In this document: positions 17,964 through 41,308 of the stretch, piece by piece
Layout: every line of letters starts with the position of its first letter
How positions within the stretch are numbered: position 1 is the stretch's first letter
Assembly (NCBI GenBank): GCA_027420455.1
Contig: DAIBJA010000036.1
Location: 1-57,527, forward strand
Length of the DNA stretch: 57,527 nucleotides
Source: Clostridia bacterium
GTDB taxonomy: Bacteria; Bacillota; Sulfobacillia; JAJZYS01; JAJYTV01
Direction: 5' to 3'
Notes under the pieces: generated by a model
Database searches by the model: none
Seen by the model: the letters and a program-made list of their open reading frames with translations, nothing else
Told to the model about the DNA's origin: nothing
Translations under genes and position numbers: made by a program

Positions 17964-19492
17964 AGGTCCTGCCACGTTTGCGGGCGATTCTCGGGCGTAG
18001 GCGCTACGAGAGCGAGGCGTTGTCGGCCGGGCAGGCACGTCAAAGCTGGTCGTGGCCGCCACGGCCCGGCCTGCATCAAGTGGCAGGTTCGACGTGTTCA
18101 GGCGACCAGGCTGCGGATCTTGCCCTTCTCGTGCTCACGGATGTGGCCGATCGCCATGGCCAGCATCACACAGAGCGCGAGGCCCACGCGCATCTTCATC
18201 TTGGCGAGGCCGCGGATGGTGTGCAGTTCAAACCCGAACGAGACATCGAGACGGCTGTTCACCCGCTCCACCGCCGTGCGCTCCTTGTAGAGTCGCTGCC
18301 AGACGTAGCTGGAGCGGTCGATCGGTGTGAAGATGCGCCGGTCGATCGCGAGCGGCACGCGCAGGCCCTTGGCGAGCGGACAGGTATCAAGGGCCCGGCA
18401 CGTGATGCCGCTGTGGCGGGCCGGGCAGAGCTTCTTCAAGGTCATGCGGTCCTTCTCGAAACCGCCGTTGGCCATCCGATGCCTCGTGCCCGTCTCGGGC
18501 GCGTAGCAGTCGACGTTGCCGTGCAGGTCGTAAGTCGCGTTCGCATGGCCCGGCAGGAGCCGCGACGTCTCGCCATCCCGCCAGGAGTTGCGGATGTCGT
18601 GTCGATCACCGGCTTGATGCCGTACTGCTCAAAGAACGTCACCGTCAGATCGGTGTCGTCGTAACCCTTGTCCGCTGTGAGGCTCGCCATGCGCTCAAGC
18701 AGCCAGTGCCTGGCGCTCGTCCATCTGCTGCAGCAAGGCCTTGCCGCCGGGTAGGTCCACCGTACTGGCCTTGGTGACGGCGAAGGCGAGCGACAGATCG
18801 TACACCGTGTCCACCACGAGGTGCAGGCGGTAGCCGAACCAGCGGACGACCTTCTCCCACGCCGTACTGTCCTTGTGCTTACCCTTGTAGCTCTTCTTCC
18901 CGTAGTCCCCATCGGTGTCGCGTCGTCCGTCCGGGACATCGCTGCTCGCCTTGTGCTTGGCGAACGAGGGCAGTGCCTTGCCGTCGAGGGCACCGCGCTG
19001 CCCGAAGCCAGGCAGCAACGTTGCCAGTTCCGCAACCATCCGCTCGAACATGGCGTCGATCTCCTCACCATGCCGGACGACACCATGCAGGAAGCGGGTG
19101 TATGCAGCTGCCGATGGCACGCCGCTGAGCCCGCAGAGATAGCGAAGTTGGCCGTTGCGCCCCAATTCCCGCCGTAGGCTCTCGATGCTCGCATGCTGGA
19201 ACACAATGCCCGCCAGCACCGAGTTCCAGATCGCCCGCACCGGATAATCGTCCCGGCCGTGCCCGCGCAGCACCTCAAGCCTCTCCACCAGCGGCCCGTC
19301 GGGCAGGTATTCAAGCGCTAAACGCAAGCGATCGAGATCGCCCAGGGCCTCACCTTGGTCCCACGCAAAGAGCGGAAGTTGTGGTATGATGGCCATGCAA
19401 GTGAGTCCTTCCTTCGGTAGATTTGGTTGTCTTAGCAACTCCCATTCTACCAGATGGCCTCACTTGTGTCTTTATTGCAGGACCTATATGCA
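17964..19492 (-). mobile_element. Degenerate insertion sequence (IS4/IS5-like), ends tentative
   Basis: A transposase pseudogene fills most of this stretch. The nine-base string AGGTCCTGC occurs at 17964-17972 and inverted at 19484-19492, enclosing about 1.5 kb, a normal size for such elements, but the match does not extend further. The true ends and target duplication are therefore uncertain. Confidence 0.4.
18098..19396 (-). pseudogene. DDE transposase with two frameshifts
   Basis: A full-length IS4/IS5-type transposase is spread over three frames. It starts at ATG 19396 (MAIIPQLPLFAWDQ), with the first Asp region in GALDGKALPSF and the YRLHLVVDTVYDL strand. It shifts frame near 18700 to ERMASLTADKGYDD (second Asp). 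It shifts again near 18600 to the C-terminal YKERTAVERVNSRLDVSFGFELHTIRGLAKMK, the Y-R-E signature. The two shifts each look like single-base changes, so the element is probably inactive unless these are sequencing errors. Confidence 0.85.
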
Positions 19493-19864
19493 GACCCAAG
19501 AGATCAAGGGCATGGGGTGAATCTCATGATCCACCCCATGCCCTCGCTGCAAAACGCCTGCATTCTGCTACCTTACTGGGGTAAACAACTTCTTGCCCTA
19601 TTCGCCAGCCCGCTCCCCGAGCGGATCTCACGACAACGGAATTACCTCGTGTCAAGGGATTCGCCCATCAGACCGGCAAGACCTACCCTCCTGCCTTTCG
19701 AGACGCTGCGCAAGGGGGCCGGGGCGTCCGGCACGATCGAAAGGTCCGCGCTCAGCAGGCGGATGACAGTGGCCGTGAGCCGCAGGCCAATCACATCACT
19801 CACTGCGCGCGGATCTCCTTGCCATTCTGCGCCGGCTACGAGCCGCGGCGGGCCTTTCTGGACG

Positions 19865-20128
19865 TTCCGCAACCGACAGGGCGCGAACCTCTCTGAGGTC
19901 TACGTGCGTCGGCTTGTGAGCGACCTGGCGCATCAAGCCGGGATTCGCAAGACGGTGACGCCGCACGTTCTGAGGCACTCCTTCGCCACGCTGATGTTGA
20001 ACGGAGCCGACCTGCTACGCGTCAAGGAGGACCTCGGCAACGGTTCCCTCTCGACCACGGAACGCTACCTGCACGCAGCCAAGAACCTGGAGCAGGGGAG
20101 CGCAGACTTCCTGCCGTTCGCGGTGTAG
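19865..20128 (+). pseudogene. C-terminal remnant of a tyrosine recombinase (XerC/D-like)
   Basis: The last 87 codons of the track ORF match the end of phage-type integrases: LSEVYVRRLVSDLAHQAGI, then the HxLRH box in TPHVLRHSFATLML, and the nucleophile Tyr in STTERYLHA. The usual LGH before STT is LGN here. The N-terminal half and the first catalytic Arg are absent, and the preceding sequence is unrelated, so it is a decayed fragment marking old integration activity next to the IS. Confidence 0.75.
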
Positions 20129-20146
20129 AAGATCAGCGAGCCAGAT

Positions 20147-20193
20147 AAGAAGATCGGCACGGGTGGCGCCAACGCGCTGCCCGTGCTTCTTTC
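20147..20193 (+). terminator. Candidate terminator after the integrase remnant
   Basis: GCACGGG (20157-20163) pairs with CCCGTGC (20180-20186), with GAAG/CTTC-like extension outside and a TTCTTTCT tail. Confidence 0.5.
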
Positions 20194-20349
20194 TCCGGAC
20201 GTTTTTTGAAGAGTCGGTCTCTGATGCGGCTTTAAGTATAGATGGCCTGAAAAGAGGGCGGAAATGCCGTGGATTTAGGCATTCCCTTTGTAGGTAGAAG
20301 GAGTGGTCACTCTCTACGCCACAGCCTCGTGCAGAAGGGAGGTGCGAAA

Positions 20350-20448
20350 GTGCATCTCATAACCCAGATCGCTCTAGGTATCATTGCCTCGCTGATCGCC
20401 GGATGCCTCATCTTGGGCTTCGAGATCCTAACCGGACTCGTGCATTGA
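20350..20448 (+). CDS. 32-residue membrane peptide 1
   Basis: Too short for the track. GTG start with AAGGGAGGT six bases upstream. The peptide is almost one hydrophobic helix (TQIALGIIASLIAGCLILGF) with a short polar end. It starts Met-His-Leu, as does the second small membrane peptide 220 bases downstream. Length and single helix resemble type I toxin peptides and other tiny membrane proteins of Bacillota. I do not recognise a named family. A perfect AATGCC-N9-GGCATT repeat lies upstream at about 20263-20284. Confidence 0.55.
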   Translation: MHLITQIALGIIASLIAGCLILGFEILTGLVH

Positions 20449-20571
20449 GGAGGAGGAGGTGGCGGCCGATGCGTCACCGAAACTTGGCCACGAGGAGCTT
20501 GCCTCCTTGCGAACTCGCCCCCCGCCGCCTTCCAGCGGCCAGTCCGTCGCAAGACGGAACGACGGGGGGTG

Positions 20572-20676
20572 GTGCATCTGGCCATACACCTGGTCCTGTC
20601 CGTGAAGGTCGCCTTGGCGACAATCGCGTTCGCGGGTACTGTGGTCGCGGCAAGGTCCCGAGCAAAACGAAAGTAG
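20572..20676 (+). CDS. 34-residue membrane peptide 2, candidate toxin
   Basis: A short ORF with one membrane helix (HLVLSVKVALATIAFAGTVV) and a strongly basic tail (RSRAKRK), the usual shape of type I toxin peptides. It starts Met-His-Leu like peptide 1. The ribosome site GGGGGG is very close to the GTG, so translation may be weak or the start may differ. The upstream 100 bases can fold: CCGTC-GCAA-GACGG and CCCCCCGCCG with CGACGGGGGG, the latter hiding the ribosome site. A convergent promoter and hairpin on the other strand suggest an antisense RNA over its 3' end. Confidence 0.45.
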   Translation: MHLAIHLVLSVKVALATIAFAGTVVAARSRAKRK

Positions 20677-20695
20677 CCCGTTCGTGGCGGGCTAC
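20673..20695 (-). terminator. Leftward terminator of the antisense RNA
   Basis: An 8-bp perfect stem (GTAGCCCG with CGGGCTAC) and a seven-base loop. The T-rich tail TTTCGTTTT is on the minus strand, so it is oriented leftward; it overlaps the stop codon of peptide 2. Confidence 0.55.
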
Positions 20696-20745
20696 CTAGC
20701 CGGGAAAACCTAGACAGATCACTCTGCGACGGGTCGGACCGCTGG

Positions 20746-20786
20746 CAACTGGGAGCGTTCTTCTTTGCGGGAGGCGCTCCCGGTTG
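20746..20786 (+). terminator. Rightward terminator-like hairpin after peptide 2
   Basis: CAACTGGGAGCG (20746-20757) pairs with CGCTCCCGGTTG (20775-20786) over 12 bases with one G-T pair, followed by TTCT. A transcript of peptide 2 ending here would overlap the leftward RNA by more than 100 bases. Confidence 0.45.
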
Positions 20787-20816
20787 TTCTATGCGGAAAA
20801 CCGCCTTACTACACAC

Positions 20817-20846
20817 ACAGTACCTACCACCGGCCTTGTATGTCAA
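20817..20846 (-). promoter_or_regulatory. Leftward sigma-A-like promoter
   Basis: TTGACA (perfect -35) and TACTGT (-10 with the key T, A and T) separated by 18 bases, on the minus strand. No protein gene follows leftward; it points at the candidate antisense RNA. Confidence 0.5.
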
Positions 20847-20869
20847 CCGGACGACTTGACTCACAATTA

Positions 20870-20916
20870 AAGTACTCGAAACTGAGTCGTTGCCTCAGAA
20901 ACAAAAGGTACTCGAA
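20870..20916. repeat. Direct repeats GTACTCGAA around an inverted repeat
   Basis: AAGTACTCGAA (20870-20880) and AGGTACTCGAA (20906-20916) are 36 bases apart and flank CTGAG-N7-CTCAG. They lie directly upstream of the small ORF at 20932 and look like a repressor binding region of a mobile element. Confidence 0.45.
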
Positions 20917-20931
20917 GGGAGGGTTGTCCCC

Positions 20932-21093
20932 ATGGCGCGAAGTCACGTTCCAGACCTGTCCCGGAGGGAGGTGCTGGACGTGCCCCTCCTGTTCAAGGAA
21001 CGCCAGGTGGTCTGCGTTGCTCGTGATGACCACGTCTGCTGCATGGTCCCGGCGTGTACCTGCGGTGGCGGCCGCCCAGTCCCTTCACAATAG
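20932..21093 (+). CDS. Small Cys-rich hypothetical protein (53 residues)
   Basis: ATG start with GGGAGGG eight bases upstream. The product has a charged N-terminus (DLSRREVLDVPLLFKERQ) and five cysteines, four clustered in HVCCMVPACTC, so it could bind metal. It resembles no family I know. It lies in the accessory island, after the GTACTCGAA repeats and about 430 bases before the serine recombinase. Confidence 0.4.
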   Translation: MARSHVPDLSRREVLDVPLLFKERQVVCVARDDHVCCMVPACTCGGGRPVPSQ

Positions 21094-21301
21094 TCTCCGC
21101 GACAAATTCGGCCAACACCGCCTGGGAGACGATCGGGGCAGAGAACAGCCCGGAGTTGACGAGCAGCTGGCACTGCATGTTGGCCCTGCATGGTCATCCT
21201 CTCGACAGACCTCGCCATTCGACCTTGTCGCCCGCGGGGATGTACATGCCGCGTCCGGACCGGGTGCGGCATAGAATCCCCGAAGGGGGGGTGGCACGTT
21301 C

Positions 21302-21523
21302 ATGGCCGAGATGGATCCTGGCGGTCCGTCCGACGTCGAGTTGGAGCAGGCATGCGAGGTCATCATCAGCCGGCGCGTATCCGCCTTGGGATGCCGCAAC
21401 TGATGGCGGGTGCTGGACTGCGACCCCGAGCTGGTCCATGGAGCCATTCGTGCGTGGGCGAACCACACTCGACCCCTCTCAGATATTGCAGACGACCTCA
21501 GGAGGGCTTTGGGGGAGGGGTAG
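21302..21523 (+). pseudogene. 70-codon ORF interrupted by one in-frame TGA
   Basis: From ATG 21302 the frame encodes 33 residues (ending SALGCRN), then TGA (21401), then continues for 39 sense codons (WRVLDCDPELVHGAIRAWAN, then HTRPLSDIADDLRRALGEG) to TAG, three bases before the serine recombinase ATG. Both halves look protein-like and stay in one frame. Either it is one gene broken by a nonsense mutation, a readthrough case, or two coupled genes with the second starting at GTG 21410. A G-run (GGGGGGG) lies about ten bases upstream of the ATG. Function unknown; the position suggests an accessory protein of the recombinase. Confidence 0.4.
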
Positions 21524-21526
21524 TAC

Positions 21527-23038
21527 ATGCGGGTGGCACTGTACTGCCGAATCTCCACGGATGAGGACCTGCAACGATACTCGCTTTTGAACCAGGAGGC
21601 GTCGTTACGCCGGTACGCCGAAGAACGGGGCTGGGAGATCTCCGGCGTCTTCGTGGATCGGGTCAGTGGCAGCAAGGACAAGCGTCCAGGCCTCAGCCGC
21701 ATTCTCGAGTCGCTGTCGATCGGGGACGCCGACGCGGTAGTGGTCACGGAGCAAGATCGGCTGAGCCGTCTGGACGAGATCCCGTGGGCCCTCCTCAAGC
21801 AAACCTTTCGGGACTCCGGGGCGCGGTTCTTTACCCTGTCGGGCGAAGTGGATTTCCACAACGAGGACGACGAGTTCTCGGCCGACATCATGGCGCTCAT
21901 CGACCGCCGGCGGCGCAAGACCATCGTGAGACAGATGGTTCGCGGCCGGGCGGGAGCGGCCAAGAGAGGGGAGTGGCTAGGACGCCTTCCCTTCGGATAC
22001 CGCAGGAGTCCCGAAACAAAGCATCTTGAGCCTCATCCTGCCGAGTCCCAGATGGTTCGGCAGATCTTTCAGCACTTCAGCCAACAGAAGATGGGCAGCA
22101 TGCGCCTAGCGGCCCTGATGCGGGACCTCATTCCGACAAGACGTGTCGACCAGGCGTTCATCATTCATGTGTTGCGCAACCCGGTATACAGAGGCGACCT
22201 GGTGATGGAGGTCGGTGGGGAAAGCATATGCGTCGAAGGGGCACATGAGCCGATCGTCAGCCGGGATCTCTGGGAGACATGCAACCAGCTAATGAACAGG
22301 AGGAGCGCCGAGAACAAGAAGTCCAGGATCGAGAGCACCGTCGGGCTCGTTGCCGGCATGGTCTACTGCGCCGACTGCGGGCAGATCCTGTCGCCCACCA
22401 CGGCCACGAAACGGGTAGGAGATGAGCTGTTTCGCTACCACTACTACCGGCACGTTCGCCAGCACCGGGACAAGGAGTTGCCTGACGGACGCCTTTGCCG
22501 TGCGGCGCATCGGGCCGAACAGGTAGACGCGAACGTCCGAGCCCAACTGACCCGCATTGCCACCTCGCCGGCCGCAAGGCGCCAGCTGCTCCGCCGCCTG
22601 GGGGACAGCAAGGAGGCAGAGCAGCTCGAAGCGAGGCAGCGGGAATTCAGTGATCAGATTGCGTCCTTGCGCCGAAAGCAGGAGCGACTCCTGCAGCTCT
22701 TCCTCTCGGGGGACTGGGATCGGAGCCGCCTCAACGCGGAGAAGAGAAACCTGGATCGCAGCATCGCGACCCTCGAAGGTGAGCTGAGCGATGTGCAGGG
22801 GAAGCTGCGGCTCGCCCGGGTGGGCGTCTTCAGCCTCGATCTGCTCGCGGAGACGTTCGCGGTGGCGGCGGACATGGCGAGCCTATCCTTCAGCGACCAG
22901 CAAACGGTCGTGCGCGGGCTCGTCGACCGTGTGGAGATCCAGGGCGACGGGCGGGTGAAGGTGATCGCCAAGGTGTCCGTGGCCGCACCTGAGGCAACTG
23001 CGACGCAGTTTGTACACCGTGGCACTGGAGCAGGATAA
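21527..23038 (+). CDS. Large serine recombinase (site-specific integrase)
   Basis: 503 residues. The catalytic domain (about 1-140) starts MRVALYCRISTDEDLQRYSL, with nucleophile Ser10, and has the EQDRLSRL helix. The Recombinase domain (about 150-250) is followed by a zinc ribbon (VYCADCGQ and a later Cys) and a coiled-coil segment rich in Glu/Arg (about 340-420). Such enzymes integrate and excise phages, conjugative elements and sporulation-interrupting elements. ATG start with GGGGAGGGG six bases upstream. All catalytic features look intact. It sits directly upstream of asd, at the right end of the accessory island. Confidence 0.95.
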   Translation: MRVALYCRISTDEDLQRYSLLNQEASLRRYAEERGWEISGVFVDRVSGSKDKRPGLSRILESLSIGDADAVVVTEQDRLSRLDEIPWALLKQTFRDSGARFFTLSGEVDFHNEDDEFSADIMALIDRRRRKTIVRQMVRGRAGAAKRGEWLGRLPFGYRRSPETKHLEPHPAESQMVRQIFQHFSQQKMGSMRLAALMRDLIPTRRVDQAFIIHVLRNPVYRGDLVMEVGGESICVEGAHEPIVSRDLWETCNQLMNRRSAENKKSRIESTVGLVAGMVYCADCGQILSPTTATKRVGDELFRYHYYRHVRQHRDKELPDGRLCRAAHRAEQVDANVRAQLTRIATSPAARRQLLRRLGDSKEAEQLEARQREFSDQIASLRRKQERLLQLFLSGDWDRSRLNAEKRNLDRSIATLEGELSDVQGKLRLARVGVFSLDLLAETFAVAADMASLSFSDQQTVVRGLVDRVEIQGDGRVKVIAKVSVAAPEATATQFVHRGTGAG

Positions 23039-23147
23039 TCCGAATGTCAAACCGAACTCGGTGGCCGCCGATCTGAGCCGGGTTGCCGACACCGTCGTCG
23101 CCGCTCTGGAACATCGGCAGCTCCAGCCTCTCCTTATCGGACGCTGA
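23019..23147 (+). CDS. Possible 42-residue ORF after the recombinase
   Basis: A GTG-started frame overlaps the recombinase end and reads into VKPNSVAADLSRVADTVVAALE, which looks amphipathic. There is no ribosome site. It could be a remnant of the gene once joined to this junction. Low confidence. Confidence 0.15.
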   Translation: MALEQDNPNVKPNSVAADLSRVADTVVAALEHRQLQPLLIGR

Positions 23148-23165
23148 CTTGGACGGAGGATCGCC

Positions 23166-24182
23166 TTGCAAAGCGTTAATATCGTGATCGTCGGGGCCGC
23201 CGGACTGGTCGGCCAGGAGATTGCCGGGGTTCTCGCCGAGCACACAAGTGCGTTGCCCGTGGGAGAGATCCGCCTCGTCGCGAGCGACCGGTCGGCAGGA
23301 CACGAGCTCGTTGCGCTCGGTCGCCGCCTCACCGTCGAGGCCATTTCCGTCGAGAGTTTCCGCGACATGGACTTCGCGTTCTTCGCCGCTCCCAACGACG
23401 TGTCGGCGCATTATGCCCCGATCGCCGCGCAGGCGGGGGCGGTCGCCATCGACAAGTCGAGCCACTTCCGCATGCAGGGCGGCATCCCCCTGGTCGTGCC
23501 CGAGGTGAACTTCGACCACATCGGAGCCGACGACCGCATCATCGCGAGCCCCAACTGCTCGACCATCCAGCTCGTCATGGCCCTCGGGCCGCTCGATCGC
23601 GCGTTCGGGATCACACGGGTCATCGTCAGCACCTACCAGTCTGTCTCAGGCAGCGGCCGCGAGGCGCTCGACGGCCTCGAGGCCGAGACGAGGGCGTGGG
23701 CGGCGGGAGAGGCGACTGAGCCGAGGGCTTATCGCGACCCGATCGCCTTCAACGTGCTGGCGCAGTGCGACGCGTTCCAGTCGGACGGCTTCACCAAGGA
23801 AGAACTGAAACTGCGCCAGGAGACGCGCAAGATTCTGGGCAGGCCCGACCTCCCGCTCGCCGCGACCGCGGTGCGTGTTCCGGTCCGAGTCGGGCACGCG
23901 GAAGCGGTCAGCGTGGAGTTCGCGCGCAAGGTGAGTCCCGAAGAGGCCCGGGAACTTTTGCGAGGCCAGCGCGGGGTGCGCATCGTGGACGATCCGGCGG
24001 CGGAGATCTACCCGACGCCGCTCGCGGCGGCCGGCCAGGATGACGTGCTCGTGGGCAGGATGCGCCAGGATCCCGATCGTGACGATACGCTGCACTTCTT
24101 CGTTGTTGCCGACAACCTGCGCAAGGGCGCGGCGACCAACGCCGTGCAGATCGCGGAGGCGTTATGGCTGAAAAGGAACTGA
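23166..24182 (+). CDS. asd: Aspartate-semialdehyde dehydrogenase
   Basis: 338 residues. It reduces aspartyl phosphate to aspartate semialdehyde with NADPH, on the route to lysine, diaminopimelate, threonine and methionine. N-terminal IVGAAGLVGQEI binds NADP; the catalytic Cys131 is in SPNCSTIQ; the substrate region is TYQSVSGSGREALDGL, and the catalytic His follows in VRVGHAEAV. TTG start with GGACGGAGG upstream. First gene of the asd-dapG-dapA unit, overlapping dapG by 19 bases. In Bacillus the dipicolinate genes dpaA and dpaB precede asd; here the recombinase does. Confidence 0.96.
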   Translation: MQSVNIVIVGAAGLVGQEIAGVLAEHTSALPVGEIRLVASDRSAGHELVALGRRLTVEAISVESFRDMDFAFFAAPNDVSAHYAPIAAQAGAVAIDKSSHFRMQGGIPLVVPEVNFDHIGADDRIIASPNCSTIQLVMALGPLDRAFGITRVIVSTYQSVSGSGREALDGLEAETRAWAAGEATEPRAYRDPIAFNVLAQCDAFQSDGFTKEELKLRQETRKILGRPDLPLAATAVRVPVRVGHAEAVSVEFARKVSPEEARELLRGQRGVRIVDDPAAEIYPTPLAAAGQDDVLVGRMRQDPDRDDTLHFFVVADNLRKGAATNAVQIAEALWLKRN

Positions 24183-33894: not shown

Positions 33895-36501
33895 TCAGGC
33901 CGTGCGCGCTGCCGGATCGAGCCTCCGCAGAAGGGCGATGGGCGTCTGCTCGTGCCCCTGGCCAAGCGGATTGTCGTAGAGCAGCTGGCGGACGAGTTCC
34001 TGGTCTACATCCTCCGTTGCGCCGAGGACGTTCACCGAGATGTCGTTCGCGTCGATGATGGCGACGCCGATTCCTTCACCAAGCGCTTGGGCGAGTTCTC
34101 GCGCGACGCCCTGAGGGTTCAGGGGCGCCAGCTTGGCATGCGTGTTGTAGGGGGGGATCGTGCCGCGCGTCGGACCGTCGATAGCCGATGCCTGCGGGCC
34201 GAGGATGTCGTAGAAGACGCCCTTGCGGCCGAAGACGCGTGCGACAGCCGCGGCCGCCGCTGCAAACAGGATGCGTGCGGCCCCGACCTCCCGCACCGCG
34301 AGTTCCATCGTTTCCGGTATGCCCAGCCCGATGCCGTGCGGCGTCTTGCGGACGAAGCGGGTGAGCAGCCGCGCGAGGGGGCGCGGGCGGATCTCGGCGA
34401 CGGGGTAGGAGCGGCCCTGGCTGATCGCGACGATCTTCTCGCTCACGGCGATGACATCGCCCGGCTTGAGATCGCCCGATATCGCCTCCTGCACGATCGC
34501 CAGGAGGTCGTCGCCCTTTTTGACGAGCGGGGTCTTGACCGGGGCGCGCAGGAAGGCGCGTCCATCCGCCTGCGCGAAGAGGTGGCGGCCCCAGTTCGGC
34601 GTGTACCGAGCGAGCGCCGCCCTGGCGTCATCGCCGCCCGTGGCCGCGAACTGCCGGTCCCCGACCTCCGTGAAGTGTGTGCCTGCGGTGGTGGAGCGGC
34701 CGCCGCCCTCGAAGAAGACGCGAAGCCAAAGCTCCATGTTGATCACCCGCCAGAATAGGAGGCTCGACGGTGAGCGGCCCTGTGCGGCGTCGCGAAAGGC
34801 CCGGGCGACGCGCTCGCCCTGCCAGTATGGCCGGCTTTGGAAGAGCGGCGAGCGGAACAGGCTTTCGAACACGGCCCGGCGCGCGAAGAGCCAGCGCGAC
34901 TCGGGTGTCGTGAAGCCCACTTTCCAGCGCCGTAGGCGGATCTTGTCCGGCAGCAGGCTCTGCATAGACTGGCGCAGGATGATGCGGCTCCAGCCGTCGC
35001 GGATGATCTCTGATTCGGGCAGCCCGAGGATTGCCTCCACGAGTTCCTGGTCGAGGTAGGGCACGCGCGACTCGATCGAGTGGGCCATCGAGTTGCGGTC
35101 CTCGTAGCGCAGGAGAGCAGGCAAGCTGTAGGTGGTGAGGTCCTGCCGCAGCCGCTCCTTGAGGTCGTCGTCGGGCCGGGTGTCCGGGGCTGGCTGGTGG
35201 GCTCGCAGGAAATCCTCGTGCAGCAGGGAGCGGGCAGGGATCGCCCGGCGCCGTTCGCGCAGCGTGCGTCGCACGACCGGCCAGATCACGTCCCGGGCCA
35301 GAGCGGCCTCACGCAGGAACGTGGCGATCTTGCGCTCACGCCACAGCTGGCGGAGGTAGACCATCTGGTAGGGCACGTAGCCTGCAAGAAGCTCGTCGCC
35401 GCCCTGACCGTCCAGAACAACCTTGACCTGATCCTTGGCGATGCGCATCACGCACCACTGGGCGTAAGGGCCCGTGCTGACGACGGGTTCGTCAAGATGC
35501 CACACCATGTCTTCCATCTCGTCGACGAACTGCTTCGAGTTCGGACTCGTGTACGTGGTGTCGGCGCCTGTCCTCTCGATCGCCGTCTCGATGTAGGCCC
35601 GCTCGTCGATGGGATCGCCGTCGAAGACGGCGGAGAAGGTCTTCACGTGGCCGCGCAGCGATGCGGCGTCCGGCAGGTGCTCGCGCAGAAGGTCGGTCAT
35701 CAGGGCGACGATCGTCGTAGAGTCGAGGCCGCCAGAAAGCGCCGCGCCCACAGGCACGTCGCTGATGAGCCGCCGCGCGACCGAGGTCTTGAAGAGATCG
35801 TGGAACGCTTCGGGCGTCATGCCGCCGTCCCGGCGCAGCTGCGGCTGCCAGTAACGCACCGGCTCGCCGATCCGTTCGCCCTCGATTACGAGGTAGCTCG
35901 CGGCGGGCACGTGCCGCACGCCCTGGAAGAACGTCTCCTGGCTGTGGTCGTGCAGGCCCTGCGCAAGGTACTCGTAGACCATGCGGTCGTTCACTGCCCG
36001 CGGCAGGTCGGGGTCTTGCCAGAGCGACTTGATCTCCGATCCGAACAGGACGCGATCGCCAGATTGCGCGTAGTAGAGCGGCTTGATGCCGAAATGGTCG
36101 CGGCAGAGCACGAGCCGGTTCTGACGCTGGTCGGCGATGGCCACAGCCCACATGCCGTTGAGGCGCCGGAAGCAGTCGGTGTCCCACGCGGCATACGCCT
36201 GGAGCAGGACTTCCGTGTCGCTCTCCGTATGGAAGCGCCGACCCATGGCCAGGAGCTCCGCGCGCACTTCGCGGAAGTTGTAGATTTCGCCGTTGTACAC
36301 GATGCGGATCTGCCCATCCTCGGTCTCCATGGGCTGATGCCCGCCCGCGACATCGATGATGCTCAGTCTGCGCATGCCTATGCTCATGCTGGGACTCTCG
36401 CTGATGCCGTGGTCGTCCGGGCCGCGATGCCGGATCGCCGCAGTCATACGCTCGAGCAGCGCGTGATCCGGAGGTCCGAAGAAGCCGGCGATGCCGCACA
36501 C
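33895..36501 (-). CDS. Asparagine synthetase fused to a CofE-like gamma-glutamyl ligase domain
   Basis: 868 residues in one frame. Residues 1 to about 605 are a glutamine-hydrolysing asparagine synthetase: Cys2 (after Met1) as amidase nucleophile, RHRGPDDHG, VYNGEIYNF, then the ATP domain with ALSGGLDSTTIVALM and DGQGGDELLAGYVPY. After a linker, residues about 656-868 match the coenzyme F420-0:L-glutamate ligase (CofE) family: GDVIAVSEKIVAISQGR, then PHGIGLGIPETMELAVREVG and IIDANDISVN. Normal AsnB is about 615 residues, so the extra domain is real and unusual. GTG start with AGGAGGG ten bases upstream. No F420 genes are nearby. The combined role is unknown; an amide or gamma-glutamyl ligation on a shared product is possible. 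Confidence 0.9.
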   Translation of the reverse strand: MCGIAGFFGPPDHALLERMTAAIRHRGPDDHGISESPSMSIGMRRLSIIDVAGGHQPMETEDGQIRIVYNGEIYNFREVRAELLAMGRRFHTESDTEVLLQAYAAWDTDCFRRLNGMWAVAIADQRQNRLVLCRDHFGIKPLYYAQSGDRVLFGSEIKSLWQDPDLPRAVNDRMVYEYLAQGLHDHSQETFFQGVRHVPAASYLVIEGERIGEPVRYWQPQLRRDGGMTPEAFHDLFKTSVARRLISDVPVGAALSGGLDSTTIVALMTDLLREHLPDAASLRGHVKTFSAVFDGDPIDERAYIETAIERTGADTTYTSPNSKQFVDEMEDMVWHLDEPVVSTGPYAQWCVMRIAKDQVKVVLDGQGGDELLAGYVPYQMVYLRQLWRERKIATFLREAALARDVIWPVVRRTLRERRRAIPARSLLHEDFLRAHQPAPDTRPDDDLKERLRQDLTTYSLPALLRYEDRNSMAHSIESRVPYLDQELVEAILGLPESEIIRDGWSRIILRQSMQSLLPDKIRLRRWKVGFTTPESRWLFARRAVFESLFRSPLFQSRPYWQGERVARAFRDAAQGRSPSSLLFWRVINMELWLRVFFEGGGRSTTAGTHFTEVGDRQFAATGGDDARAALARYTPNWGRHLFAQADGRAFLRAPVKTPLVKKGDDLLAIVQEAISGDLKPGDVIAVSEKIVAISQGRSYPVAEIRPRPLARLLTRFVRKTPHGIGLGIPETMELAVREVGAARILFAAAAAAVARVFGRKGVFYDILGPQASAIDGPTRGTIPPYNTHAKLAPLNPQGVARELAQALGEGIGVAIIDANDISVNVLGATEDVDQELVRQLLYDNPLGQGHEQTPIALLRRLDPAARTA

Positions 36502-36718
36502 GGCGAAGAATCCCTCCTAATGCATCCTGCAAGAAGGCAGGTCCCATCCAGGATAGCGCTTACCGGCCCAATGTGCATCCCGTAGCGCCATGGTCGCCCC
36601 GGTTGGACGTCATTCACACGCCGTCGGCTTGAAGGATGCAGAATTGGCCGCTTGCGGCCTTGAGGGATGCAGTGTAGTGTATTGGACGTCCTTTCCGGGT
36701 TGCTGGGGGAGGGAGTTC

Positions 36719-38287
36719 GTGGCTCAGCCCGAAGAAGCCGGCGCGCTGCGGCGGGATGTCACCGTCTGGGGTTCGTTCATGTGGGGGTACGCCGACGTCG
36801 GAGCCGACATCTACACGGCTCTCGGCCTGGTTGCCGGCGCCGCGATGGGCGCGACGCCCGTCGCGTTTGCTGTAGCAGGCATCGTCTACCTTCTGGTCGG
36901 GCTCGCCTATACGGAGCTCGCGTCGAGCTATCCCGTGGCGGGTGGCGGCCAGTATTTCACCCTGCGCGGACTTGGCGACGTCTGGGGCTTTGTCTGCGGC
37001 GCCGCCCTCCTGCTTGACTACACGATCGACATCTCGCTCTTCGCGGTATCCTCGTCCGGCTATTTCAACTTCTTCCTGCCTGCGCTCGGCGTGAACATCC
37101 ACGCCTTCGTCGTATCGATCGGGCCCTTCGTCGGCGTCAACGTTCTGTGGATGACCGAGACGCTCGTCATTATCGCCTTCCTGATCGCTATCAACTATGT
37201 CGGCATCCGCATCTCCTCGCGCATCAACGAGGTGCTGGGCGTTGTCGCCATCCTCGGCCAGGTCGTGATCGTCGTCTTCGGCTTCGTCTTCGCCTGGGAT
37301 CCGAATCTCATGCTGCTGCAGATGCGGCTGCAGTTCCCGGACATGCACAATTTCATGTACGGCTCGTCCCTGGCCATCATCTCGTTCGTCGGCCTCGAGT
37401 CGATCTCGCAGGTTTCCCAGGAGACCAGGCGCCCCGCCACGATCGTGCCCCGGACGTCCATCTCCCTCGTGCTCAACGTCCTCATCTTCGCCCTCGCCTT
37501 CTCCGTCCTGGGCATGGGCCTTCTGCCATGGCAGGTCCTCGGTGCGCACCCTGGCGATCCGATCGCCATCGTGGCGCAGAGGATCCCGATCATCGGCGCC
37601 ATCGCCGCTCCCATGACGGCACTCATCGGCGGCGTGATCGTGCTCATCTCGTCGAACTCCGGTGTCATGAGCGCGTCGCGCCTCACCTACTCGATGAGCA
37701 CCTTCCACCTGCTGCCGGAGTGGTTCAGCGCCGTGCATCCGCGCTATCACACGCCCCACCGGACGATCATCGTCTTCTCCGGCGTCGCGGTCGTGCAGGC
37801 GATCCTTGCCTTCCTGACCGGCGAAGGCGCCATGAACACACTTGCGAACATGTACGCCTTCGGTGCGACGTTTGGCTACCTGCTCGTCTTCATCTCGCTG
37901 ATCGTCCTGCGCTTCAAGGATCCCTACACGCCGCGCCCCTACCGGATGCCCATCAACATCGCGCTGAAGGCGAAGGATGACGGGGGGCCGCAGGTGGCGT
38001 TCCCGATCCTCGCCGTGATCGGCTTCCTCGGCGTCGGCACGATCCTCTTCGAGGTGATCCTGACGCACGCGATCGGACGCATCGCCGGCCCCGCCTGGGT
38101 CATCGCGATGCTCATCCTCTACTACATCTACCGCCGCCGGGCCGGTCTTCCGCCCTGGCGCGCCCTGCCGCGCGACTGGGAGAGTCAACAGCGCAAGACG
38201 CTGCGCGAGGCGGAGGAGTACGAGCTTCTCGCCGAGTATGAGGCGGCGCTGGAGGACAAGGCGGCCAGGGGAGGGCGCGCGACATGA
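36719..38287 (+). CDS. APC-family amino acid permease
   Basis: 522 residues with about 12 membrane helices of the amino acid-polyamine-organocation family. It starts VWGSFMWGYADVGADIYTALGLVAG and contains the conserved ELASSYPVAGGGQYF and EVLGVVAILGQ segments. A charged cytoplasmic tail of about 45 residues follows the last helix. The track start is 43 codons early; GTG 36719 has GGGGGAGGGAG just upstream. It heads a unit with a small membrane protein and a stress protein. Divergent from the AsnB fusion gene across about 220 bases. The substrate is unknown. Confidence 0.92.
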   Translation: MAQPEEAGALRRDVTVWGSFMWGYADVGADIYTALGLVAGAAMGATPVAFAVAGIVYLLVGLAYTELASSYPVAGGGQYFTLRGLGDVWGFVCGAALLLDYTIDISLFAVSSSGYFNFFLPALGVNIHAFVVSIGPFVGVNVLWMTETLVIIAFLIAINYVGIRISSRINEVLGVVAILGQVVIVVFGFVFAWDPNLMLLQMRLQFPDMHNFMYGSSLAIISFVGLESISQVSQETRRPATIVPRTSISLVLNVLIFALAFSVLGMGLLPWQVLGAHPGDPIAIVAQRIPIIGAIAAPMTALIGGVIVLISSNSGVMSASRLTYSMSTFHLLPEWFSAVHPRYHTPHRTIIVFSGVAVVQAILAFLTGEGAMNTLANMYAFGATFGYLLVFISLIVLRFKDPYTPRPYRMPINIALKAKDDGGPQVAFPILAVIGFLGVGTILFEVILTHAIGRIAGPAWVIAMLILYYIYRRRAGLPPWRALPRDWESQQRKTLREAEEYELLAEYEAALEDKAARGGRAT

Positions 38288-38454
38288 AGCGCGGCTTCGC
38301 CCTGGTGATCGGCGGCATAGCTCTCGTGCTGGGCGTGATCATCATCGTGCGCGGCATCGCGGAGCACGGCAGCCTGCTCTACGACCTCATGGGCGTCCTG
38401 TTTGTCGCCCTGGGCGCCGCACGCATCTACGAAGCGCGGCGGAGGAGAAGCTGA
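38284..38454 (+). CDS. Small two-helix membrane protein (56 residues)
   Basis: Too short for the track. The ATG overlaps the permease stop (ATGA), and the stop is one base before the stress-protein ATG, so it is translationally coupled on both sides. Two hydrophobic segments (FALVIGGIALVLGVIIIVRGI and LLYDLMGVLFVALGAARIY) flank a short polar turn, with a basic end. I do not recognise the family; it may be an accessory subunit of the permease. Confidence 0.8.
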   Translation: MKRGFALVIGGIALVLGVIIIVRGIAEHGSLLYDLMGVLFVALGAARIYEARRRRS

Positions 38455-38455
38455 C

Positions 38456-39043
38456 ATGGCGCTTCACGTTCGCCTGCTTGGTACGATCATCTCCGTCGTC
38501 TTCCTCGTGCTGCTCACCCTCGTCTTCCGCTGGATGTTCCGCGTCCCCCGCCAGCTGCCGTACGAGGTGGCCAAGATCCGGCGCACCGTGAACCAGCTGC
38601 GGACGCTGGTGGTGCCCGTCGTCGCGGCGATGTCCTCGGAGCGCGCGGTGGAACTCGCGTGCCGGCTCGCCGAACCGCAGCAGGCGCAGATCATCCTGGT
38701 GCATGTCCTCGAGGTCCCGCTTTCCTTGCCGCTGGACGCCGCGATGCCGGTCCAGCGCGCGGCCGGCGATGCGTCGATCTCGGTCGGCGTGACGATCTGC
38801 GAGACGCACGAACTGCCCTGCGAGGGGGTCATCGTGCCTGCGCGCAGCGCTTGGGAGGGTATTCTGCGGGTAGCCCGCGAGCGCCACGCGGATCTGATCG
38901 TGCTCGGTCTCGACGCCAAGATGCGCCGGCCGGGCGAGGAACTCAGCCGCAACGTGGCGCAGGTGGTGCGCCGCGCTTCGTGCGAGGTTCTCGTCGACCG
39001 GCCCGCTGCCGGAACGATCGAAGAGGTGCCGTCGGCGACCTGA
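38456..39043 (+). CDS. Membrane-anchored universal stress protein
   Basis: 195 residues. An N-terminal membrane helix (LLGTIISVVFLVLLTLVFRWMF) is followed by a UspA domain (about 45-180): VVPVVAAMSSERAVELACRLAE and ADLIVLGLDAK, ending with a SCEVLVDR strand. The typical ATP motif GxxG(9)G(S/T) is only partly kept. Most UspA proteins are soluble or fused to a transporter; here the anchored domain is a separate gene right after a permease, so it may regulate transport. ATG start with GGAGGAG upstream. Confidence 0.85.
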   Translation: MALHVRLLGTIISVVFLVLLTLVFRWMFRVPRQLPYEVAKIRRTVNQLRTLVVPVVAAMSSERAVELACRLAEPQQAQIILVHVLEVPLSLPLDAAMPVQRAAGDASISVGVTICETHELPCEGVIVPARSAWEGILRVARERHADLIVLGLDAKMRRPGEELSRNVAQVVRRASCEVLVDRPAAGTIEEVPSAT

Positions 39044-40015: not shown

Positions 40016-41308
40016 CTGGCAGCCGAGGAGAGTCAGGGTCTGCGTCGGGTACTTGGCTGGCAGGAAGGCACGGCGCTGACGGTCGCCTCGGTGCTCGGCT
40101 CCGGTGTGCTCTACCTTCCGGCGCTAACGGCGCAGGAGGCCGGGCCCGGCGGCATTCTGGCCTGGGTGGCCATGGGTCTTCTCATCATTCCGCTCGCCTT
40201 CACCCTGGCGCGGCTTGCGACCAGGTTTCCGGACGCCGGCGGCATCGCCGCGTTCGCGCGCGCGGCGTTCGGCCCGGCCGGCGGCGCGGCGGCGGGTTGG
40301 CTGTTCCTGGGCACGGTGCCTTTGGGTGCTCCGATCGCCGCACTGATCGGCGCCGGCTATCTCGCGGCGGCGTTCGGCCTGTCGCACCTCGGCATGATCG
40401 CGGTGGCGGGGGCTCTCCTGGCGCTCGCCATCGTGCTCAACGCGCTGGGCGTGGAGATTTCCGGCCGTGCCGCGACCGGCGTGGTGGGGCTGATCGCACT
40501 GCTTCTGCTGGCCGCCGTCCTGGTCGGGTTCATGCATCTCAGGGCCGCCGACTTCGAGCCGGTGCTGCCGCATGGCATCATGCCCGTCGGACTCGATCTG
40601 GCGCTTCTCTTCTGGGCCTTCGTCGGCTGGGAGGCGGTCGCCAACTACGCCGAAGAGTTCGCCGAGCCCGAGCGAGACCTCAGGCGCGCCATGATCACGA
40701 GCATCGCCCTGATCGATGGCCTCTACATCCTCCTGGCTGTCGTGACCGTAGGCACGGGCGCCTACATCGGCGGCGGCAGCCGGGATGCTCTGGCGGTCAT
40801 GCTGGGTCAGGGCGGAGGACGCGTCGGGGTGCTGGCCACATCCCTCCTGGCCCTGCTCGTCACCTACGGCACCATCCACGCCTATGTGGGCAGCTTTGTC
40901 CGACTCGTCTATGCCCAGGCGAGGGCAGGGGACTTTCCCGCCTACTTCGCGCAGCTCCACCCGGAGACGCGCACGCCCCTCAGGGCGATCTGGAGTCTGG
41001 CCGTCGTGTTCCTGCTGGTGCTCGGGTTGGAGGCAGTCCATCCCGTGGGCCTTGAGGGCCTCGTGGCCTGGTCCTCTGCTGTTTTCATCGCGCTCTACGT
41101 GCTGGCGCTCTGGTCGGGCCTGCGCCTCCTGACGGCACGGGGCGAACGCCTGACCGCTTTCGTGGCCATGCTCGTCTGCCTCGGCACCTTGCCGTTTCTC
41201 GGCTGGGGCGCGCTCTACCCCCTGGCGCTCGCGGGGATCGGTGTGGCCGTGCGCCTTGCGCGCGGGGATGGGCAAACCCTCTGGCAGGGCCTGAAGACCA
41301 GGGGATAG
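40016..41308 (+). CDS. APC-family amino acid permease with a CTG start
   Basis: 430 residues with about 12 membrane helices. The track ORF begins inside the first helix (GTG 40091). Reading back in frame gives LRRVLGWQEGTALTVASVLGSGVLYLP, the usual APC opening, but no ATG, GTG or TTG occurs before the upstream TAG. A CTG at 40016 with GGGAGG nine bases upstream is the best start. FVGWEAVANYAEEFAEPERDL is the conserved central loop. It begins 38 bases after the VanW gene. Likely an amino acid exporter or importer; the substrate is unknown. Confidence 0.88.
   Translation: MAAEESQGLRRVLGWQEGTALTVASVLGSGVLYLPALTAQEAGPGGILAWVAMGLLIIPLAFTLARLATRFPDAGGIAAFARAAFGPAGGAAAGWLFLGTVPLGAPIAALIGAGYLAAAFGLSHLGMIAVAGALLALAIVLNALGVEISGRAATGVVGLIALLLLAAVLVGFMHLRAADFEPVLPHGIMPVGLDLALLFWAFVGWEAVANYAEEFAEPERDLRRAMITSIALIDGLYILLAVVTVGTGAYIGGGSRDALAVMLGQGGGRVGVLATSLLALLVTYGTIHAYVGSFVRLVYAQARAGDFPAYFAQLHPETRTPLRAIWSLAVVFLLVLGLEAVHPVGLEGLVAWSSAVFIALYVLALWSGLRLLTARGERLTAFVAMLVCLGTLPFLGWGALYPLALAGIGVAVRLARGDGQTLWQGLKTRG

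Follow-up and report, generated by a model that had tools for sequence, protein, structure and literature searches.

Asparagine synthetase B of E. coli (AsnB, TIGR01536) combines a glutaminase (GATase) domain with a PP-loop synthetase domain and carries a nucleophilic Cys2, an SGGLDS motif and K449. Some relatives of this enzyme act alongside other ligases, as in NAGGN synthesis, where an AsnB-like amidotransferase with Gln at position 348 stands beside an amide ligase, Ngg, encoded by a separate gene. The fold of Ngg is different from that of the CofE-like domain described below. The WbpS and XrtA-system (eps_aminotran_1) amidotransferases are likewise AsnB-like and act on non-aspartate carboxylates, and in P. 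gingivalis an AsnB-like amidotransferase acts on the linking sugar, an amino-acid-bearing uronamide (PMC7468200). In the AsnB enzymes that amidate mDAP (LtsA, B. subtilis AsnB), the Asp-binding D and R are lost and the substrate site has an extra loop (PMC8554201). CofE (2PHN, TIGR01916) belongs to another ligase family, and its mechanism of carboxylate activation and amino acid coupling has been worked out (PMC10861534). Members of this family can be recruited outside F420 synthesis, as illustrated by the unfused FolC2 of Chlamydia (CT611, COG1478; PMC1971073).

We examined a gene that joins these two families in a single chain, located in a 57,527-nucleotide stretch of DNA from a Clostridia bacterium bin (hereafter the window). 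Its frame starts with a GTG at 36501, ends with a stop codon at 33895-33897 and stays open in between, with Cys as residue 2 after the GTG-encoded initiator; a plus-strand reading of the same interval was dropped, as it contains in-frame stops. Pfam searches identify GATase_7 (2.6e-46, aa 44-160), Asn_synthase (9.4e-76) and F420_ligase (2.4e-14, 53.8 bits vs a cut-off of 25) in one chain, each above its own cut-off. The uninterrupted AsnB–CofE-like frame of 868 codons reported in a preliminary description of this DNA is thus borne out, as are the motifs quoted there. No signal peptide or membrane segment is evident in the fusion protein, which is best read as cytosolic. The full-length structural model is confident (pTM 0.85), consistent with a defined arrangement of both halves.

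Table 1. Features of the fusion gene and its neighbours (positions are those of the window).
Feature	Position	Strand	Basis
Fusion gene (asnB-type amidotransferase + CofE-like ligase), 868 aa, GTG start	33895..36501	minus	
N-terminal class II GATase (glutaminase), aa 1-200 approx., nucleophile Cys2	35902..36501	minus	GATase_7, C2 conserved
Asn_synthase domain (AMP-forming amide synthetase), aa 233-594, PP-loop SGGLDS	34720..35805	minus	Pfam
Motif D364-G-Q366-G-G-D-E370; Q366 aligns with E. coli AsnB E348 / human ASNS E364	35392..35412	minus	Alignment
CofE-like (PF01996) domain, aa 640-868; Pfam profile covers aa 655-815	33898..34584	minus	Pfam, AlphaFold, Foldseek
Asp817, aligned to CofE Asp150 (2g9i chain numbering)	34051..34053	minus	HMMER alignment with 2phn/2g9i
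Asp775, invariant I-D motif; probable counterpart of Asp in CofE AG[VI]D.SN	34177..34179	minus	Motif order
Amino acid permease (AA_permease_2), divergent neighbour, conserved in genus and family	36590..38287	plus	
Universal stress protein-domain protein, conserved neighbour	38402..39043	plus	
VanW + G5 domain protein, conserved neighbour; directly adjoins the fusion in L030	39048..39977	plus	
Second amino acid permease, conserved neighbourhood	40091..41308	plus	

The same architecture occurs at about 55-100% identity in many genomes. An identical junction is present in a contig of another assembly (L024, 99.86% identity), and the junction recurs in over 20 divergent fusions from several families and three phyla, with identity as low as about 55%; no join was found near codon 620, where the preliminary description had considered one. 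In a genome survey of the host's class, 21 of 154 genomes contain the fusion, counting matches within open frames at least about 830 residues long. The CofE-like family itself is present in 113 of the 154, and also in Clostridia, Patescibacteria and others. Beyond Bacillota, fusions were found in Actinomycetota, including a Frankiaceae MAG, and in one genome that shares its class with the Chloroflexota MAG L071. Records bearing names are mostly 'Bacillota bacterium' MAGs, with one Symbiobacterium sp., and a plasmid search with the whole fusion protein returned no record covering 80% of it, indicating no plasmid-borne fusion.

The bin is 77% complete with 4.46% contamination, and it holds a second syntenic copy of the locus (contig C15, G000) at about 81% DNA identity to the window copy. 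Since a 20-kb alignment of the window contig (C13) with contig C268 of G003, a separate genome of another species, shows 99.86% identity, and C15 matches G002/G004 at 92-95%, the bin is probably mixed. We attribute the two copies to this mixture and rejected the idea of two paralogues in one genome. These same features of the bin could point to an assembly or frameshift artefact, but this explanation is refuted by the occurrence of the same fusion, with conserved motifs in both halves, in many independent assemblies, and we regard its probability as negligible. Two longer fusions, L058:8069-10864 (931 aa) and L079:7766-10741 (991 aa), carry sequence that the window protein lacks. Elsewhere in the window, positions 19454-23519 are weakly coding and include an ORF (21527-23038) that resembles a site-specific serine recombinase; this segment is possibly a mobile element.

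The AsnB half passes the asparagine synthase equivalog TIGR01536 with 442.2 bits against a cut-off of 267.1 (NCBIfam). Its Cys2 and SGGLDS PP-loop are intact, the C2 is conserved across all intact fusions in the alignment, and a K449 equivalent is present. It falls below the cut-offs for the NAGGN amidotransferase (TIGR03104, 312.2 vs 570.1 bits), from which it is also separated in the AsnB tree, and for the WbpS/XrtA group (TIGR03108, 378.5 vs 816.9 bits), whose members are without a fused ligase. Unlike E. coli AsnB, the fusion has an extra C-terminal CofE-like domain of 230 aa and a Gln in place of E348. This Gln is found in every intact fusion aligned (DGQGGDE) and in the split AsnB of L071 (DGQGADE), whereas E. 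coli AsnB and the other aligned AsnB paralogues of the host's class have Glu, including the bin's own paralogues on contigs C11 (SGESADE) and C81 (SGEGADE). Gln also occupies this position in the NAGGN amidotransferase (SGQGADE) and in an Azospirillum AsnB of an exopolysaccharide locus (DGQGADE). The equivalent human ASNS variant, E364Q, is inactive with aspartate (PMC6748925). Because this essential Glu is replaced, the AsnB half probably amidates a substrate other than aspartate and is probably not a true asparagine synthetase; a single residue is a strong indication against Asn synthesis but does not prove it. The Asp two residues past GQG is retained, a comparison made with the mDAP-type AsnB features as described in the literature. 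The 'complete AsnB' of the preliminary description therefore stands with regard to its two domains, Cys2 and SGGLDS, while the identity of an asparagine synthetase is improbable given the Glu-to-Gln change.

We weighed whether the protein might still be an ordinary asparagine synthetase to which the CofE-like domain is a regulatory or independent accessory. The TIGR01536 score and the divergent amino acid permeases that adjoin the fusion fit such a role. It is contradicted by a substitution, common to all intact fusions, that corresponds to the inactive human variant, by the two further Glu-containing AsnB paralogues in the bin and by the separate pairing of an asnB with a CofE-like gene in L071, and we consider it quite unlikely. 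In a separate case, L065:6648-9101 (= L343), the AsnB half is degenerate (C2 replaced by G, SGGLDS missing) and the CofE-like half is kept; because of this degeneration, either this copy is decaying or its amidotransferase step can be dispensed with.

The C-terminal part of the fusion is a whole domain, as standalone relatives begin at the equivalent 'PN.GK.L...R.PVKT'. Its AlphaFold model has a pLDDT of 85.9 and a pTM of 0.82, and the sole confident PDB matches in Foldseek are CofE structures (TM by query 0.55-0.61), with 2phn at E 4.4e-10 and TM 0.61. Compared as profiles, the domain and canonical CofE match at 97.9% probability (E 4e-13). Nevertheless, the fusion scores only 33.1 bits against the TIGR01916 CofE equivalog, below its cut-off of 180.65, where the canonical CofE of L126 served as a positive control with 292 bits; it is also below the threshold of PRK13293 (24.5 vs 274 bits). 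The sequence resembles CofE strongly only across the first third of the domain, including the N-terminal motif, and around D150. We take CofE Asp109 and Asp150 to be metal ligands. Asp817 aligns with the latter and is invariant among 28 diverse members from several phyla, while Asp775 in the I-D motif probably stands in for Asp109. The CofE motif AG[VI]D.SN is changed to AIDGPT and DTFGR.WR to DANDI..N.LG, and no counterpart was mapped in the fusion for the other metal- and nucleotide-binding residues of CofE or its F420-binding hairpin. Because the typical CofE motifs are replaced, the domain represents a distinct subfamily with the CofE fold, not a CofE. The earlier assignment as CofE-like holds in the PF01996 match and the fold, and the subfamily is its own. 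Some standalone CofE-like genes (L249:5368-7847, L037, L038) occur as tandem or fragmented copies.

This partial match to the CofE active site, together with the fusion of the domain to partners as different as TPR, Amidase_3 and AsnB, would also fit a non-catalytic binding or oligomerisation module, leaving the amidotransferase half as the sole enzyme. Against this, positions D and R and the DNP..Q....TP motif, including the D150 counterpart, are invariant across the 28 members, and we find such a module improbable.

We also asked how the fusion relates to F420 and folate. Canonical CofE was not found in the bin (77% complete) or in the near-complete genomes G002, G005, G029, G037, G056 and G057. 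CofD matches beyond the YvcK type are likewise absent from the bin and these six genomes, with the exception of a 30-position edge fragment in G005. All genomes searched, including the E. coli control, have PF01933 matches because this family includes YvcK-type proteins; second, weaker CofD-type matches occur only in G011, G061 and G062, besides the edge fragment. The same three genomes contain an intact canonical CofE; in G007, CofE is represented by no more than a small fragment. The bin and every fusion-bearing Bacillota genome tested have a folC that scores above cut-off. With canonical CofE not found and folC present, F420 and folate roles of the fusion are unlikely. Gamma-glutamylation of F420 or folate by a CofE- or FolC2-like activity could be argued from the PF01996 match and from CT611, a CofE homologue that replaces FolC in Chlamydia (PMC1971073). 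However, the fusion lies far below the equivalog cut-off that true CofE exceeds, the bin and its six near-complete relatives have no canonical CofE or CofD, folC is present in every Bacillota genome tested, unlike the Chlamydia situation, and G011 has canonical CofE and CofD in addition to the fusion. Such an activity is therefore very unlikely, in keeping with the original remark that no F420 role is implied: F420 genes are missing nearby, from the bin and from several near-complete fusion-bearing relatives.

Phylogenetic analysis places all 27 fused domains in one clade of the CofE-like tree (SH-aLRT 98). The fused domains also form one clade in the AsnB tree (SH-aLRT 99), to which L071 is sister (98) and the Azospirillum exopolysaccharide-locus AsnB the nearest outgroup; the AsnB paralogues of the bin fall outside it. 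L071 has an asnB gene (624 aa) and a CofE-like gene that overlap but are read in different frames; the second gene begins with an ATG of its own, and less sequence separates the domains than in the fusions. We rejected the interpretation of L071 as a mere frameshifted fusion on account of this ATG, the shorter gap and the position of both genes outside the fusion clade. Since L071 falls outside that clade in both trees, the simplest account is that pairing of the two domains probably preceded their fusion, as judged from one genome with a split pair and from quick trees with SH-aLRT support and no bootstrap. WOR-3 genomes with close standalone CofE-like relatives contain AsnB, none of it fusion-type (29-34% identity).

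Taken as a whole, our best reading, to which we give an even chance, is that the fusion is a cytosolic bifunctional amide synthase acting in two steps, with a ligase and an amidotransferase. This retains the 'two-step enzyme' of the preliminary description, strengthened by the separate gene pair of L071. The C-terminal domain would use GTP and a divalent metal to activate a carboxylate, as CofE does, and would join this carboxylate to the amine of glutamate or a similar amino acid; gamma-glutamylation specifically is one inferred form of this step. The AsnB part would hydrolyse glutamine and pass ammonia to the synthetase site, where a carboxylate, either of this product or of its precursor, would be converted via acyl-AMP to a carboxamide, giving an amide-capped aminoacyl compound. 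Aspartate, F420 and folate are probably not substrates. The NAGGN amide gene pair and the amino-acid-bearing uronamide sugars offer analogous precedents for this logic.

The gene context of this putative two-step enzyme was also compared. Within the genus and family, an amino acid permease gene lies divergently beside the fusion, and Usp, VanW-G5, the second permease and upp come next; beyond the family the neighbours of the fusion differ, and no pathway is indicated. Other CofE-like genes of the host's class have different partners, namely Amidase_3 fusions, TPR proteins and adjacent Amidase_3 or M23 genes. At 56 CofE-like loci of this class, the adjacent genes include 13 Amidase_3, 5 PBP and 2 M23, so that 20 of 112 adjacent genes belong to these types as compared with 0 of 451 other genes of the same loci (Fisher p 2e-15, a value that is indicative only: the related loci are uncorrected for kinship and were selected for spread across genera, and some of them supplied the query set). 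Two Amidase_3–CofE-like fusions were found (L242:6007-7590 and L243:6111-7757). Same-strand amidases that overlap or nearly abut CofE-like genes are mostly without an obvious signal peptide; Amidase_3 genes in this arrangement occur in several families (L244:5354-6956, L329, L331, L332, L334, L336, L338). TPR–CofE-like genes lie directly beside a PBP (transpeptidase domain) gene in L234:3842-7013, L236, L237, L238 and L340, and in L234 a sigma factor gene follows the pair.

These associations suggest a more specific form of the two-step amide synthase, in which an amino acid is ligated to a peptidoglycan or glycopolymer building block, for instance at a lactyl or uronyl carboxylate, and the block is amidated. 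The CofE-like family would then be GTP-dependent amide ligases acting on carboxylates of envelope blocks, of which the muramic acid lactyl group, chemically like the phospholactyl of F420-0, would be one example, and the fusion would carry out both steps, aminoacylation and amidation, on such a precursor in a single chain. The enrichment at the 56 loci, the two Amidase_3 fusions, the mostly signal-less amidases and the VanW/G5 gene conserved near the window fusion and adjoining it in L030 all favour this form, as does the amidation of mDAP (PMC8554201) and uronic acids (PMC7468200) by AsnB-like enzymes. On the other hand, a single VanW is the only peptidoglycan gene among 43 genes adjacent to the AsnB fusion, the CofE-like genes that do have peptidoglycan links sit for the most part on deep and divergent branches of the CofE-like tree, and such links are scarce among the closest standalone relatives (Clostridia, Patescibacteria, WOR-3), with 2 M23 among 112 adjacent genes. 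Because only VanW recurs beside the AsnB fusion itself, we hold both the envelope role of the family and that of the fusion to be doubtful, a tentative refinement of the two-step amide synthase.

Both parent families are known. Within open-licence papers, we found no description of the fusion, of the role of the CofE-like subfamily or of its cell-wall associations. The CofE-like family is common, and its Pfam name would be misleading for the organisms without F420 that carry it. Testable routes to function are offered by the fusion, by the split pair and by the linkage of cousins of the CofE-like domain to amidase and PBP genes; they may lead to a new amide modification of the cell wall or of a small molecule.
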